The notes beneath the pieces are model-generated. The model made no database searches. It worked only from the letters and a program-made list of their open reading frames with translations, and was not told the origin of the DNA. A stretch of 64,000 bases of DNA, from contig OY725500.1 in the NCBI GenBank assembly GCA_963281255.1, positions 3,901,184-3,965,183 of the forward strand, read 5' to 3'. Below are positions 33,436 to 42,159 of this stretch, one piece after another. The stretch comes from Aphrocallistes beatrix (taxonomy: Eukaryota > Porifera > Hexactinellida > Sceptrulophora > Aphrocallistidae). Every line of letters begins with the position of its first letter. The first letter of the stretch is position 1. Position numbers and translations under genes: made by a program.

Positions 33436-36400
33436 ATGTCACTGATTCGAGGGGTATTTATAGTAGCAGCAAAGAGAACAGCATTCGGCAAGTTTGGGGG
33501 TAAACTGAAAGGCAAATCTGCCACTCAACTCGCGATAATCGCATCTAAAGCAGCAATTGAGGCTGGAGATGTGCACGCAGAACACATTGATAATGTTGTA
33601 ATGGGGAATGTTATACAGGTAAGTACATACGAAAATTTTCATACCGTATTTCTATTATGTACAGGTTCCATCGCTATTCCTACATCTTATAGTCTTCGAG
33701 TGATGCTATGTATATGGCTAGACATGTCGGACTCCATTCAGGAGCTCCTATCTCTTCCATTGCTCTTACTGTCAACAGATTGTGTGGGTCTGGATTCCAG
33801 TCTATTGTTACTGGAACAGAGGTAAGGTTATTCGGCAGATATAAAGAATGATAATTCCCTAAGGAAATTCCTTCATCACATTTCATAAGTAAGTCTGGTT
33901 TTAGGCGATCTTGCTCGGTAACAGTCACCTAGTGCTCGCAGGGGGCAGTGAGAACATGAGTACCGCTCCCCTCGCTACGTACGATGGTAGATGGGGAACT
34001 AAACTCGGAATGGAAATGAAGGTATTGATAGAAAGGTGAGGATTTAGATTAACCAGAAGATGTAATATTCATGAATGTATCTAGTTTGAAGACACACTAT
34101 GGGCAGGTCTCTCTGACACCTACTGCAACCTCCCGATGGCAATAACGGCAGAGAACTTAGCAGTGAATTATAAGATTAGCAGAGAGGATTGCGATAAGTA
34201 TGCCCTGCAAACTCAAACGAGATGGGAAGAAGGTACTGAACTACGTTTCTTGTTATAAGGAGCATTGAAACCAAGCAATTATTTAGGAGCGTATCACGCT
34301 CCTTTCGGCGTATGATTCTGAGTGAGAATCTATTCATGAGCGCAAATATTGGCAATATTTCCACCATACCATAACGATATGATGCAATTTAGGCGTATTA
34401 AAAATTAAGGGATACAAATTAGGAGCGTATCTCTGGAGAGCTGTGTAATACCTTGATTGAAACCCGTTTTATTTCCGTAATAAACGTAGTTTGTAACTGA
34501 ACTATTGAATTGTTACAGCTTGATTTTATTGTTTAGCAAATGCTGCTGGTGAATTCGAAGACGAAATTTGTCCTGTCACGGTAAAAGTTAAGAAAAGAAA
34601 GGAAGATTTTCTGGTCGACGAACATCCGAAGAAAACGTCATTGGAACAACTTGCAAAGCTAGATGTTGTTTTCAAGAAGAATGGAGTTGTAACAGCTGGG
34701 AATGCATCTGTAAGTTGTCCCCTCCCCCCCTCACCCCATCCCTCCCATATTATTCTAAATTGCATCCCACAAATATTAAAAAAATTTATCAAATTAAACG
34801 TAAGAAAAACCTATGAGATTGAAGAATATAAAATTTCTAATTACTAAGATTTAATGTGTATTCCATTGGTATTTTTTTTCTTGAAGTTTCTTCTTGCCAT
34901 ATTCTAGCCTACGTTTTAAGAGAAAGAAAGAAATCCATTTATCAACCCACCCCGGTAATAGCCCGCGTAAAGAATGCCAAACCTCGTGAGAAAAATACCC
35001 AGTCGTGTCACTAAACCTGCCCACCGCACGAATTGATTGAGACAAGAATTCTTCTGTGCTAGGTATCAGAATTTTCGACTTAGTGAATCTGCTCATCTTA
35101 GTGCATACAAGATAAGGTGTGATAGTTTGAATGATCAAACGCGATGATTTACACTCATAGTGGAGTGCATGTGTGAATTTTCGCATGAGAGCTTTACAAG
35201 CTGGATAAATGGATAGAAGTGGCATTGAAAGTGTCCCAGCACCAGACGACACATTTATTATCACACCTCTATCACGTGCCAGCATCCCAGGGAGGAGAAT
35301 ATGTGTCATTTTTAGAAAAGATTCATAATTGACCTTCAACATGCTGTGGATGTCAACAGTCGAGTTTTCAGGATCACAGAAGTACAAGGGGTATTCCGTC
35401 GCGACACCTACATTATTAACGAGCACCCCAATGTCCATATCTCCTAACTGTTGTGAGATTGAGTTGTATGTGTCTGTGTCCGCATAACTGAAGTCTATTC
35501 CAATTATTTTCGTCGCGATTTTGAATGTCTCTTCCAAATGTTTAGATTGTGTTTCGAGTTTTTCTTGCGATCTACTCATGAGTACGATATTGAATCCGAA
35601 ACTAGCTAATTTCTCCGTGTACGCTTTTCCTATCCCGTCTGTACACCCTGTGACAACAGCCCATCCTCCTGCCCCGCGGAATTTGACAGGTTTGGAGATG
35701 TAGAAGACGTAGATTGATTTTATTAGCCAGTAAGTGACTTGTGTTACAATCTTAACACAGAATATGAACCCTGTTACGAGTATAGCTCGGTACAATATAC
35801 TGAGCATGTATCGAACTATTAATATCAGGAAATAGAATTAGATGAGAAGAACTGGTGAGTTTTGATACCCCCCCCCCCGTTTCCCCATCGATAAAAAAAT
35901 GTGAACTAAATTATACATAAATAAAAAACATTCCAATCAGAACAAACAAAACCAATTAATTTATTGATGTACAGTCACAGTATGGAATCACAATCAGCTT
36001 AAGACGACTCAGTAGTATGAGGCTGCGAATTGCGTTAATGATTTGAAGGAGAGAGAGAAAGAGGGAGAAAGAGAGAGAGCTTATAAAAGTATTCTAAGAA
36101 GGGCGAAAGGCAAAATAATTAAACCCTCAAAATCTCCAAATTACACTTGTAGCAGATCGCAATCCAGTCGGGCTGTAGCATAGACCAGTGCACCTGATTG
36201 ATCTCACCGTCAGCTTGATAAGCAAGCAGGGGGTCTTCAATGGGGCGTGAGATCTGCTGGATGTCCCAGATAAGCGCTTTCTTGTCATCAGAAGCGGTGC
36301 AGATGTGGCAGGAGGAATGTGGCGCCCAGGATATCCCATTCAGCTGCGACTGGTGGTTCTGTAGCACCCCTACTGGGGTGGAAGAAGCGCGAATATCGAT

Positions 36401-39400
36401 AATATTCACTTCCGTACTATCAATTGCGATTGCACTGATATAGTTTGAGTCTTGTTTATTCCAAGCTAGCCTGAGTAGAGCCTTATGGTGTGGATCCTCG
36501 TAGAGGATAGTGGAATGTTCAAGATTTCGCAGGTCGAACAAACGGATTGACCCGTCCGCACCGCATGAAATAAACAGATCACGGCCCTTGTCCGACTTTG
36601 AGAACGCGATGTCGTAGACTTCTTTATCATGCGCGATCAGCTGTGTCTTTATGCTGCCAGTTAGCGTTGGTTTGGTTCGCCCCATTGCTTGGCCTGTTTC
36701 TATAGACCATATGGTACAAGTGGTATCAATGCTACAGGTGCCGATCAACTGGAGGTCGACTTCATTCCAGTCGAAAGAGGTTAATGGGGCACAGAACTCG
36801 GAAGCTTTATTGTTATTCAAAAGTGTCTCGAGTTTCACTTCGTTACCGTTGACGTGCCATATGCGTAGGTAATCCCCCGAAGTTGCCAGCAGGTCCGGTA
36901 GTTGTCCGGTTGAGTCAGGAATCCAGTTGATGCGGGTAGAAGGATACGGATGATCGAATTGAGATTTCATTTCAAAATCGCCAGTCTCGTTAGAGAGTGA
37001 AACTATCTGGATTTTATTACTGTATTCCTCCACGAAACTACCGATCGCAAGACGGAACCTGTGATCAGGCCGGTATGACCAGTTCATAGCGTACACCGGC
37101 CATGGCGCGGCGTATTTGTAGATTTCCTTACTTCTGACACTCGAATCAGTAGTCATCTGTTCTCAACACTTCTCTACGGAGTTACTAATCAGGTACAATA
37201 AAGCGATGCTATAAGTCTAATATTATTGGATTTCACTCGACATAATTATACTCACCACTTTTCTCAAAAGTTCTTGATAAACTATGGATGAATACAATAT
37301 TGTCTCCTTCTCATCGCCCAATGGATGCGTAAATCTGAAATCAGCATGGTTAAATATAATGTTTTAATTAGTTTTAAGATCGACCTGAAACGGTGAATAT
37401 TAATGCATCTTATCAAATATTCATTTTGGTACATAGATTTTGCATTATTAATTGCTATCTCGTTCGTTTAGGGCATTTGTGATGGAGCTGGAGCGTTGGT
37501 GCTAGCTAGCGAAGATGCACTGAAAACACACAACCTGAGACCTTTAGCCCGTGTGGTGTGTAGCGAGGTAGCAGGGGTGGAGCCTAGCATCATGGGGATC
37601 GGTCCGGCACCTGCGATCAGAGGAGTACTGAAAAAAGGCGACAAAAGGATAGAGGACATAGCTATAATCGATGTGAGTTCCTGAGACTGATTGATGAATT
37701 TTTACAGCTGATTTTCCCTATTTTCACATTTTTAAATGTTGCAAACTCGGGGAATTAAGTGTAAAATTTTACTTTGAAGAGAATAATTGCATTTGGGCAG
37801 CTAAAATAGTCACAAAATGTTCTTATTACTGCAACATTCAACTTGTTAAAAAATCCGACACTTTCAAATGTACAAATCTGAACATTTACATAAATAAAAA
37901 CTAAAAAATAACATAAATAATTCAAACCAAACGCAAATATACACTCTACATGACTTGCCCCACAGATTCAGTCATATCTTCTCCCACCAATACTTCTCTG
38001 TCTTAACACTTCGCTTTTGCTTGGCCACTTCATCAGCAATCGCTTTATTCGGCGTCAGATCCGATTCATTTAGAGGTTTATTAGAAATCGGTTCTTTGTG
38101 GTTGCAATTGATATAAAGCAATAACGCTTCGCGGTCAAATGTGTTACCATCCGGAGTGATGACTGGATTCTCGAATATCTTATGTGTGAGGGGACAAATT
38201 AAGTAATCTGGACATTTTGGTCGAATGTCTTTCGCTGTTCTAGCTGACTGGGATCTGTTCAGTTTTCTGGAAATAAGGGAAGAGGAAAATATGGGTGTCT
38301 TGTTCTCTTTATTCTTGGCGTAGAAGAGCAGTAACTCCTTTGTTTGAACTGCATGTGAGGGAATAGGTGAGACGAAGAGATTATAGATGGCATCGATAAT
38401 TTTCCGTAGTGAAATACTATTCTTGTAGCCATCAAAGAGTAGTGGATGGCAAATATTCCCTTTTTTATCAACATTACAATGACGTATCTTGCACAAGATG
38501 CGAAATTTCGGAGGAGCTAATGGGTAACGACTTGGAAAATGCATTAATAGCTCAACATTGGGGATAACCTTATGAAACTCGAATGTTATAAACCAATCTT
38601 TGAGCGAACGATTTGTTGAGTACATTTTCGCGTATGGATTTGGATTTCGCACATACTGCGTGATAACTCGCAGAATATGTACAACATCATCAGGGGTAGA
38701 AGCTGACGTGAAGTTCTGCTGTAAATTCTCTAACTGGTCATCATGATCTTGAAATTCATTGATAGCTGGACTCTCCATTTCAGATTCGTTTTTATTTTCA
38801 ATGCGAATATGATTTTCCACCAAGTCAATATACTCCACAAGTCTGGAGTTACTGAACGGATACTCATCGAAGATGTTTTGTTCATTAGTAATATGACGAT
38901 CGACCGTGTTTTCATTTATTAACATTTTGATTTTAGTTTTCTCTTCTCTACTCAGGCTAAACTGACCTCCGAAAACTACCAATGACTTCATATCGAAAGG
39001 AATAATGCAATTCTTAATATCTTTCGCTGTATTTTGGTTGGTAATGCAAACGAGACTCGATTTCGGATAGTTCGTAGAGCAAAATACAATTGCATTTGCG
39101 AGAGGATCTTCATCAACTTTTTGTTGTTTAGTGATGGAAGGTTTCATTAGAACTTGAAGTGTCGTGTCAACGGCAAGTAGTATGTCGTTATAACAGAGTG
39201 TTGGGCTAACTAGCAGTCTGTTAAATTCTTCCCCTTGTCTTTCCCTTGAGAACACATACAGTCCTAATAGATGGTTCGTTTCCTGTCGTATTAATCGATC
39301 AATGATTGTATTTATAAGGATCAATCCAGTTGAGAGTTGTGTACACCCGTATTTCTCCGTTTTCTGCTTTCCTTGTATGGAATTTATATCAGTACGCCCC

Positions 39401-42159
39401 AATTCTTGTGAGAAATCCAGCAGTAGTATCATACTACCCGTCGTGTTGCTATTCGATACTGCTTTTCCGATATTCATTGGGATGGTTGGGAAGTCGTGTG
39501 GATGGAAGGAAACGGCTTTTCCTTCTTTCGGTGAGTAGTATTTCAGGTATTTATACGCTTCTTTGGACCCCCCAGTGAACACTACAGCTCCGTTTGAATC
39601 GGTTTTGTGAGAGAGTAGCAATCCATTCTCAACTCGATACTGCATAAAGTCGAACATGAGTTCAATAGAGTTCTTATAGGGGAACGAGTCATTTTTGTCA
39701 AGGGCTATTTTGGCGTTTAATTTCTGGTTCACGCGAGGAGCACTCGACCAAAGTACCATCTCCTTCTGTTCCTCAGGAAAAGACATCGCTAGCCGTCTGA
39801 TGTTAGATTCAGGCGATTTTCTACGCGATCGGGATGGGAGATATAAGTTATCGTATTGCTCAGTAATCTTGTCTCCTGGATTAGAAGATTTTTCTATGAA
39901 TGCACATAATTGAGAGAAAAGAGGGAGTTTATCCGGAATCGAGTGCTTATTATCAACAGCGAAGGAAAGGATCATAGAAATTCCTTCTAGGATTGCGATT
40001 TTGTGCGGCAACGATATAGAATTTCCCGTCGCTAGCAGATACATAGCATATACCATTGGAGCTGAGCAAGTGTTTTTTCTTAAACTACCAAGAAATTGTA
40101 GTAGCTCATCTTTGCTTTTTCCCGATAGCTCGCGTGAGAAGTACATTAGTTCCGAGTTGAATGTATGCAGAACGTTATACTCAGGGTGTTGTAAACCGCA
40201 AGGACGTGCTAAACCACTGGCGAATGCGTCTAACGAAGTGGGCGTCCAGTATTCTTCAGATAACTCGAAGATTAACTCGATTCTATTCTCTTGGATAGCT
40301 TTCACGCTTACGCCTTTATCCTCTTCAAGTCGGCTGGGGGATCTATAGTTGATAGGCCGCTGATAGAGGCTAATACAAAAAGGAGGTAGTTTGATGTGTA
40401 GAGCGAGTGCCCGTTTAATCTCTGAACCTAGTACAGTATCATCATCAAAGGATAAAGCTTCAATACCTAGTACCAAGTCATCATTGATACTTTGTACTAT
40501 TATCATATGCTTTGTGGTGGGATTTGTGCTTTCAACTGGAGCTGTGGGCGGAGGGAGAATCGCCTTAGGGATGGCGTATACTAATTCTTCATTACGCAAT
40601 AACCATAATTTTATCGGGCCTAGGAAATAGGCTGGGTTGGTGACTAGAGGATAGCCAGTTTCAGAATAGAGTTCTATGCTCTCGCATTCATATTCAATGC
40701 TTGGTTTCACAATGTTATACATCTGCGTGATGACGTCATAATAGGGCGTGTTCTGTTCTACCTGGAAAGATTCTGTGCGGTTGAATTGAATGTGAGAAGA
40801 TGACAAGAGTCGGTATCGAATGCGAATGAAGACAGGCTCATTGCTAGTGGGGCGATTCATTTTGATCTCCTACATTAAAATATATTATAATTGACTTTTA
40901 AAACTTAATTAAGGCGCATTAAATAACGTTAATACATGATTAATCTATTCAGAACATCATAGTACCTGTATTGCATTTGGTGCCATCTTTCCAAAGCGTT
41001 TCATCTCCTCTATTGTAAGGCCTAACACCACCAGTTGGCCTTCATTGGAAAGGTAGTACTCGAAATCTTCCAACCTTTTAACTAGAGGGGTAGTGGCATT
41101 GTTTATGAATTGCTCTTTGTGCCGTTCTAAATCTAGTTTCTGTAGAAACTGTTCTACCTCTTCGGTCATTTTCTTGAGAACTTAACTAAATTACTTCTCG
41201 TCTCACGTTTATTATATATGCATACACCTTATTCCTGGTCAATACAACTCACACAACGATTCCTTTAAATGTTGGGACTAATCTCCTTTTAAGTCAGGCA
41301 TAAATTACCTCAGATACGCCTCCTCAGCAATTGTAATTCAATTGAGATAAATGAATTAGTTTATGCTTGACTATCAGTTTATCTGAACTAGACATAGAGC
41401 ATGTCATGATGTCTTAATCATACGTTTGTACTGGTATTATTCCCCTCTCCACGTGCTGTTATTAGTGATGTACTTCCAATTATCAAGTCACTAGATCGAC
41501 TCAGTACTTTTTTTAAAAATTAGCATTTTTTTGTATATCTAGTCTAAACACCCACTATGTTTTTTAAAAAATGTGTCTGTATAATCTTGTCTCATACATC
41601 AACTAAATAATTTAAAAAATCTAACGATTTGTGACCTAAAAAAGACATTTTTATCGACTTGTCAAAATGTCGATAAAAGTTAGGTCAGGTCAGGTCAAGT
41701 CAGTTATTTTTGCAATCAGATTATTCAAGATCATCTCAGCCCACGTCATTATCAAGTATAATACTACATAGCTCTATATCATGTTATTTTAATTAATAAG
41801 GTCAGGTCGAGAACCTAAGCCTGGAGTTCAGTTATCCATGGTTCTAGTTCTCAATGGGCACTAACTCGTATTAAAATACATTTCTAGTCTCACACAATGA
41901 ACAAGTTCAATTCTAGATAAACGAAGCGTTCGCTGCTCAATACTTGGCGGTGTTGAAGGAGCTCGGTCTGCCTGAAGACAAGCCGAACAAGTGTGGAGGA
42001 GCCATCGCTTTAGGACACCCGCTAGCTGCTTCCGGAAGTAGAATCATGACGCATCTCGTTCACCAGCTGATACGGAAAAAGGAGAAATACGCAATCGGCA
42101 GTGCATGCATTGGCGGTGGACAAGGCATAGCAATATTAATTGAAAACGTTAACATCTGA
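33436..42159 (+). CDS. ACAA2: 3-ketoacyl-CoA thiolase, mitochondrial type
   Basis: Seven phase-consistent exons (33436-33618, 33693-33821, 33905-34021, 34085-34232, 34537-34709, 37472-37672, 41917-42159) give 397 residues, the same length as human ACAA2. The start [20 protein letters not shown] matches the uncleaved N-terminal targeting region of that enzyme. All catalytic residues are present: C92 in [11 protein letters not shown]351 in [11 protein letters not shown]381 in SACIGGGQG, and NEAFA. The enzyme performs the last step of mitochondrial fatty acid beta-oxidation, splitting 3-ketoacyl-CoA with CoA. The fifth and sixth introns are 2.8 and 4.2 kb, far larger than the others, because they hold three complete minus-strand genes. 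Confidence 0.96.
34851..35807 (-). CDS. Very-long-chain 3-oxoacyl-CoA reductase, HSD17B12/HSD17B3-like
   Basis: 318 residues, intronless, nested antisense in ACAA2 intron 5. A hydrophobic N-terminal anchor (about residues 5-40) precedes a short-chain dehydrogenase fold: cofactor loop TGCTDGIG (near 54), NNVG (near 130; Val in place of the usual Ala), catalytic Ser in INVSSGAG, and Y-x3-K as YPACK. The C-terminal part ([10 protein letters not shown] and the later [12 protein letters not shown]) matches the HSD17B12/HSD17B3 subgroup. In the ER, HSD17B12 reduces 3-ketoacyl-CoA during fatty acid elongation; some relatives act on steroids. A terminal di-lysine ER signal is not evident (ending QWNTH). 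Confidence 0.88.
   Translation of the reverse strand: MLSILYRAILVTGFIFCVKIVTQVTYWLIKSIYVFYISKPVKFRGAGGWAVVTGCTDGIGKAYTEKLASFGFNIVLMSRSQEKLETQSKHLEETFKIATKIIGIDFSYADTDTYNSISQQLGDMDIGVLVNNVGVATEYPLYFCDPENSTVDIHSMLKVNYESFLKMTHILLPGMLARDRGVIINVSSGAGTLSMPLLSIYPACKALMRKFTHALHYECKSSRLIIQTITPYLVCTKMSRFTKSKILIPSTEEFLSQSIRAVGRFSDTTGYFSHEVWHSLRGLLPGWVDKWISFFLLKRRLEYGKKKLQEKKYQWNTH
36119..37156 (-). CDS. DCAF7: DDB1- and CUL4-associated factor 7 (WDR68/HAN11)
   Basis: 345 residues, intronless, nested antisense in ACAA2 intron 5. It is a WD40 propeller matching the strongly conserved DCAF7 family over its whole length (human protein 342 residues): start [18 protein letters not shown], then [70 protein letters not shown] and [15 protein letters not shown]. 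The protein scaffolds DYRK1A/HIPK2 kinases and MAP3K1, and can serve CUL4-DDB1 ubiquitin ligases. Start codon at 37154-37156. Confidence 0.97.
   Translation of the reverse strand: MTTDSSVRSKEIYKYAAPWPVYAMNWSYRPDHRFRLAIGSFVEEYSNKIQIVSLSNETGDFEMKSQFDHPYPSTRINWIPDSTGQLPDLLATSGDYLRIWHVNGNEVKLETLLNNNKASEFCAPLTSFDWNEVDLQLIGTCSIDTTCTIWSIETGQAMGRTKPTLTGSIKTQLIAHDKEVYDIAFSKSDKGRDLFISCGADGSIRLFDLRNLEHSTILYEDPHHKALLRLAWNKQDSNYISAIAIDSTEVNIIDIRASSTPVGVLQNHQSQLNGISWAPHSSCHICTASDDKKALIWDIQQISRPIEDPLLAYQADGEINQVHWSMLQPDWIAICYKCNLEILRV
37972..41169 (-). CDS. SAM / UBL-like / vWA-like / UBC (E2) / U-box fusion protein
   Basis: Exon 1 is 40966-41169; intron 40870-40965 (GTACTA...ATGTAG, phase 0) joins it in frame to exon 2, 37972-40869; 1033 residues. 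Residues 1-68 resemble a SAM domain ([31 protein letters not shown]). About residues 75-260 hold two ubiquitin-like segments (weak). A vWA-like segment with LDFSQELG follows near residue 553. About 795-920 is an E2 fold with [12 protein letters not shown] and [11 protein letters not shown]; the Cys of GNIC (residue 875) sits at the catalytic position and the Asn of the usual HPN is kept. Residues 954-1019 are a U-box ([31 protein letters not shown]). E2 charges and transfers ubiquitin and the U-box is an E3, so one chain may do both. Nested antisense in ACAA2 intron 6. If exon 1 is separate, the second ATG (40860) gives 962 residues. Confidence 0.85.

Follow-up and report, generated by a model that had tools for sequence, protein, structure and literature searches.

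Does a single polypeptide of the glass sponge Aphrocallistes beatrix join a ubiquitin-conjugating (E2) core to a U-box, and could such a chain act as both E2 and E3? The question is raised by a gene in a 64,000-nucleotide stretch of genomic DNA, hereafter the window, which lies on the contig numbered C14 below. A preliminary description made from the sequence had proposed SAM, ubiquitin-like (UBL), vWA-like, E2 and U-box parts in one protein, a combination that it believed undescribed. We analyzed the gene together with its paralogues in the same genome.

Structure of the window gene

The features of the gene, with the evidence for each, are as follows (positions are those of the window; all lie on the minus strand).

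37972..41169, minus strand: whole gene (exon 1, intron and exon 2)
41169..40966, minus strand: exon 1, SAM-like, residues 1-68 (translation; top three Pfam matches are SAM models, all under cut-off)
40965..40870, minus strand: predicted phase-0 intron, 96 bp, GT..AG (splice signals in the sequence)
40869..37972, minus strand: exon 2, 965 codons plus stop (open frame; 962 codons from the ATG at 40860)
40558..40833, minus strand: region UBL1, residues 81-172 (conserved in the 14-row alignment; beta-grasp by appearance only)
40246..40509, minus strand: ubiquitin-like region UBL2, residues 189-276 (aligned with the Pfam ubiquitin stretch of the C1 and C11 paralogues)
39871..40161, minus strand: conserved block, residues 305-401 (helical by appearance; alignment)
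38878..39450, minus strand: degenerate vWA, residues 542-732 (profile-profile match to the other branch; metal motifs altered to DFSQE and TNQ)
38317..38697, minus strand: E2 (UBC) domain, residues 793-919 (Pfam UQ_con; gap-free with UBE2N from query position 50)
38449..38451, minus strand: codon of Cys875 (aligns with the catalytic Cys of canonical E2s)
38008..38211, minus strand: U-box, residues 955-1022 (Pfam U-box; resembles the U-boxes of LubX, CHIP and others)

The 962-codon frame with an E2 core and a C-terminal U-box lies where the preliminary description had placed it, with coordinates, reading frame and motifs all in agreement. The G+C content of the stretch is 40%, at which a 965-codon open frame carrying these motifs is not a product of chance. 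Joined to the SAM-like exon across the intron, the long frame gives a spliced product of 1033 residues.

The proposed link to an upstream SAM exon through a phase-0 intron holds in part: the predicted splice sites fit and the frame starts of paralogues agree with them, but the SAM exon of the window itself stays under the Pfam cut-offs. Among 14 long exon-2 frames of paralogues on contigs C7 and C2, 13 start immediately downstream of a TAG, and in the remaining frame a CAG occurs at 15 bases from the start; three SAM exons on C7 run in phase 0 into GTAAGT or GTGAGT. The TAG at the frame starts favours the predicted acceptor and intron, and it is suggestive rather than proof because TAG also terminates frames by definition. 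A retrocopy origin of the gene was rejected, since the predicted intron sits at the place and in the phase suggested for the paralogues.

E2 and U-box domains of the window copy

A Pfam scan of the 1033-residue protein returned a UQ_con match of 54.5 bits (cut-off 27; E 1.2e-14; residues 841-919, profile positions 48-127 of 140) and a U-box match of 50.0 bits (cut-off 21.4; E 3.4e-13; residues 955-1017), and nothing else in the scan passed its cut-off. Both scores are far over threshold, which bears out the UBC and U-box assignments made earlier. UQ_con scores in five paralogues were 94.9-125 bits. The top matches of the window E2 were a 'ubiquitin carrier protein' and UBE2N, with Cys on Cys, and the E2 of the C11 paralogue matched UBE2D1 best, aligned end to end. 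LubX was rejected as a special relative: it was the top-scoring U-box among solved structures, but the match was confined to the U-box region.

Residue 875, the cysteine previously assigned to the catalytic place, stands over the canonical E2 cysteine in the alignment. In a 14-row alignment taken from 21 frames of at least 500 codons, the window active site retains its His, Asn and Cys (HCN...GNIC). HCN replaces HPN in the window, C1, C2, C11 and some C7 copies, and the nearest paralogues of the window copy have HPN.

The same alignment shows where the window E2 departs from its relatives. Four residues are missing between strands 1 and 2 relative to the paralogues, an Ile occupies a position that is Phe in all 13 other rows, and KNS stands against SPS or SPN in the five nearest rows. 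This last difference is a weak point because the other branch of the family, with TSD, SSD, TKG and APG, also lacks SPx. We take the altered positions to be those that contact RING/U-box E3s in canonical E2s. Against the five nearest rows, 48-53 of 125-127 E2 residues are identical; in the U-box, 34-40 of 68 residues are identical to the four nearest paralogues having a U-box in the alignment. An excerpt of PMC10971424 gives the canonical E2 motif as histidine, proline/cysteine, asparagine.

The E2-U-box family across the genome

The genome searched comprises 100.5 Mb in 28 contigs. Scans of it for signalling genes gave five TGF-beta matches and, in a scan whose controls were silent too, no Wnt match, a pattern that would fit a glass sponge. 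Protein searches located paralogous frames on C7 (223-391 kb), C2 (two), C1 and C11, besides the window on C14. Counting the window, the family has 23 E2 loci, of which 18 form a cluster on C7, and in 20 of the 23 a U-box match lies 79-134 bp behind the E2 match. The three family E2s without a U-box match behind them are C7:345990, C7:311045 and the broken C7:376201.

Genome-wide there are 28 U-box matches. They were paired against a subset of the UQ_con matches, 44 out of 99, that covers every family locus and some further ones. Twenty-one U-boxes follow a UQ_con match of like strand, 20 of them at a distance of 79-134 bp; the remaining one is an additional U-box, 866 bp past an E2 that is included in the count already. 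The UQ_con matches left out of the pairing are mainly the group at C1 11.67-11.95 Mb and fragments, none of them, by eye, near an unpaired U-box. Seven U-boxes are unpaired, and the three of these proteins that were scanned comprise one of UBE4/Ufd2 type and two of RING/TRAF type. With 21 of the 28 matches behind a family E2, the family greatly enlarges the U-box complement of this genome.

Two paralogues run in a single frame: C1:7376262-7379693 (1144 codons) and C11:323524-327009 (1162 codons). The C1 protein passes Pfam cut-offs for SAM_TNK (3e-8), ubiquitin (4.5e-8), VWA_2 (2.9e-9), VWA, UQ_con (1.3e-30) and U-box (4.6e-18), the U-box match having a second stretch. The C11 protein passes them for UQ_con, U-box (two stretches), ubiquitin and a mid-protein zf-Nse (residues 403-446), with SAM_TNK and the vWA models under cut-off. 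In both C1 and C11 a U-box-like segment separates the helical block from the vWA; by alignment the window copy does not have it. The E2 plus U-box anatomy of the family is near certain, and the case for the remaining order of SAM, ubiquitin and vWA domains, as carried by C1, is strong. The claim that all five parts share one polypeptide thus stands for the E2 and U-box in the window and for the full order in paralogues; in the window itself the SAM is sub-threshold, and ubiquitin and vWA are without a profile match.

The catalytic cysteine is retained at 20 of the 23 family sites, the window's among them (19 of the 22 others). It is replaced by Tyr at C7:283824 and C7:389818, the latter behind a stop, and by Gly at C7:354756, and these three copies are, by their sequence, candidate pseudo-E2s. 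Stops or frame breaks interrupt several of the C7 copies.

Pattern searches with the C1 paralogue gave 25 matches in a viral contig collection and nine in a prokaryotic genome contig collection, and the pattern of one C7 paralogue gave six in the viral collection; none was confirmed, in collections that are viral and prokaryotic and hence a poor guide to other eukaryotes. The exon-2 protein of the window was too variable for a scan of this kind.

Several further observations were made at these loci. One family copy (L063:197-3637; C7:342996-346436) has a long GEEIPRE-type repeat insertion and a frame without a U-box. A 1152-codon frame encoding a NACHT protein (C7:402530-405985; L042:2530-5985) adjoins the C7 cluster, and the 10 kb on the other side of the cluster hold no frame of 200 codons. 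A second UBC cluster occupies C1:11.67-11.95 Mb (G000; L043, L044), with no U-box match inside; in two 10-kb stretches of it, one frame has a pair of UBC stretches, and frames of TRAF zinc-finger and IBR type are found nearby.

The SAM exon

The best Pfam match of the window SAM exon, SAM_2, scored 18.6 against a cut-off of 20.5, and the exon stays under every Pfam cut-off. Four of seven SAM peptides on C7 pass a Pfam SAM cut-off, as does the C1 SAM; the C11 SAM stays under. A profile built from the window, C1 and C11 SAM segments brought four C7 peptides within the HMMER inclusion threshold, two of which precede one and the same family copy. With the C1 SAM as sole query, six C7 peptides and C11 were recovered; the window exon was recovered neither by the C1 SAM alone nor by the C11 SAM alone, and as sole query it placed only itself within the inclusion threshold. 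Around the C2 copies the search detected no SAM, the top C2 peptide having E 5.2.

The middle region

The window copy has no vWA or ubiquitin profile match at E up to 1, so that its UBL and vWA assignments rest on the paralogues. The stretch aligned with UBL2 matches Pfam ubiquitin in C1 (E as given above) and in C11 (8.2e-10). UBL1 has no Pfam match, and the idea that it is a second copy of UBL2 was rejected, profile comparison giving a probability of 1.4%.

For the vWA, the window copy and five C7 rows were combined into a window-subfamily profile, which matched one of the other branch (six rows: C1, two C2 and three C7, with C11 excluded for its insertion) at a probability of 90.7% and E 1.3e-6. 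Searched against solved structures, the other-branch profile gave six matches at E <= 0.01, four of which were Rpn10/PSMD4 (2.1e-4 to 1.1e-3). The window-subfamily profile had no PDB match below E 0.078; its six rows, at E 0.078-0.35, are not significant; BABAM1 accounts for five of them and CLCA for the sixth, presumably all vWA proteins. The MIDAS motif (DxSxS and a later Asp) reads DVSWS or DISGS and TDG in C1 and C11; the window has DFSQE and TNQ in its place, and by these residues its vWA metal site is degenerate.

Evolution of the family

A midpoint-rooted tree of 20 rows joins the window copy to eight C7 rows (100/100). Its own end branch (1.62) is longer than any other in the tree, which makes its placement unsure. 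Its closest relative is about 31-32% identical.

Twelve paralogue pairs, chosen from 105 possible among 15 frames, overlapping and with the window copy in none, all gave an E2 dN/dS of 0.11-0.36, as values without a significance test. Synonymous divergence differs strongly among the domains of one pair: in the C2 pair, dS was 0.13 for UBL, 1.08 for vWA, 0.19 for E2 and 1.15 for the U-box. This unevenness suggests patchwise gene conversion. In two pair-domains dN exceeded dS, a U-box (0.092 vs 0.025; 64 codons) and a middle region (0.058 vs 0.023; 69 codons), and these cases carry little weight because the sites are too few.

Comparison with known systems

BIRC6 is an E2/E3 hybrid, and Rpn10/PSMD4 and BABAM1 are vWA proteins of the ubiquitin system. 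To our knowledge, natural E2/E3 hybrids are few and none has a U-box; we likewise know of no U-box, SAM or vWA in UBE2O and BIRC6, and of no E2 or U-box in Rpn10/PSMD4 and BABAM1. The family resembles UBE2O and BIRC6 in carrying an E2 domain inside a large multidomain chain, although a Pfam scan of six family proteins found no BIR match. It differs from UBE2D and UBE2N in that its E2 is fused within a thousand-residue protein. Rpn10 was found by the other-branch vWA profile, and BABAM1 weakly, not significantly, by that of the window subfamily.

In the excerpts of the literature used here, UBE2O and BIRC6 are named as multidomain E2s (PMC11354881), UBE2O is termed a hybrid E2/E3 (PMC12635394) and engineered E2-E3 fusions are mentioned (PMC5738348). 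The excerpt of PMC3087547, a catalogue of animal U-box genes, reports a VWA plus U-box gene of Monosiga (Mb_UBOXa, XM_001744651.1) and some protists, ancient and absent from animals, as well as genes with SAM and U-box but without WD40 in the sponges Oscarella and Leucetta. Compared by description only, Mb_UBOXa shares VWA and U-box in one protein with the family, but its description there mentions no E2, SAM or UBL. WDSUB1 and the sponge genes share SAM and U-box, and no E2 or vWA is mentioned for them in that excerpt. No WD40 match was found in the window protein or five paralogues, which sets them apart from WDSUB1. PARP proteins that include a UBC or U-box domain (excerpt of PMC2964712) were set aside as separate proteins carrying a PARP domain. 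No natural protein with both E2 and U-box is described in the available portions of PMC3087547, PMC4327156, PMC11354881, PMC10971424, PMC2964712, PMC5738348, PMC8169666 and PMC3482391, and the novelty attributed to a U-box E2/E3 hybrid is, to that extent, uncontradicted.

Possible modes of action

The sequences establish the E2 and U-box, the one-frame domain order in paralogues, the low dN/dS of paralogue E2s and the retention of the cysteine. Read from them, the most likely interpretation, which we hold at somewhat better than even confidence, is a one-chain E2-E3 ubiquitin enzyme whose family expanded in this lineage and whose E2 and E3 parts would act in cis or with the help of oligomerization. 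An E1 would load ubiquitin onto the E2 cysteine, and a U-box would then activate the charged E2. That U-box could belong to the same chain, acting in cis across the short linker, or to an adjacent subunit tethered by SAM, through which the chains would oligomerize. The vWA and ubiquitin-like parts may recruit a substrate or a ubiquitin-bearing partner. The window copy has the same chain in a diverged form, and may for that reason be weaker or specialized. With its many variants of an E2-linker-U-box chain, the family would offer a direct test of how an E2 is activated by the E3 fused to it, the copies without the cysteine serving as natural controls.

The long end branch, the degenerate vWA metal site and the altered E2 leave the activity of the window copy in doubt. 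Possibly, though we put this below even, it is a catalytically weak or dead paralogue retained as a scaffold or regulator of active members: in addition to the branch and the metal site, the four-residue E2 gap and the changed Phe position point this way, as does the outright loss of the cysteine in other copies. Yet Cys875 and the His and Asn of HxN are retained, the 965-codon frame is unbroken and the U-box shares 34-40 of 68 residues with the four nearest paralogues that have one in the alignment.

It is rather unlikely that the E2 and U-box do not act on each other, the U-box recruiting separate E2s while the E2 serves other E3s or just binds ubiquitin. U-boxes usually bind free E2s, and the window E2 is changed at the presumed E3-contact positions; the preservation of the short-spaced pairing at 20 of 23 E2 loci argues against this reading.

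On the family as a whole, a speculative and doubtful extension is that clustered duplication and patchwise gene conversion might yield one-chain E2-U-box enzymes with varied vWA/UBL recruitment around a more homogeneous E2 core, a set that could serve in cytosolic defence as a rapidly evolving repertoire; the idea derives from a single NACHT gene, the clustering of the expanded copies and their unequal divergence.

That the window gene is a pseudogene is very improbable: several C7 copies are broken and the window copy is strongly diverged, but its 965-codon frame is clean, its motifs are conserved and its splice sites are plausible. Separate genes for SAM, E2 and U-box, which the sub-threshold SAM exon behind its intron might suggest, are scarcely credible, given that C1, and C11 with weaker scores, run continuously from SAM to U-box in one frame and that E2 and U-box share one exon in the window.

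Genomic surroundings

The window gene lies on the minus strand downstream of exons matching Thiolase_N and between two plus-strand frames that, by their motifs, we take to be thiolase-like. From this arrangement, it is probably nested in an intron of a thiolase-like gene (33454-42159, plus strand). An earlier intron of that gene seems to hold two more minus-strand frames, presumably HSD17B12-like and DCAF7-like. Elsewhere in the window, a plus-strand frame of 789 codons (627-2993) carries long KEGATN-type repeats.
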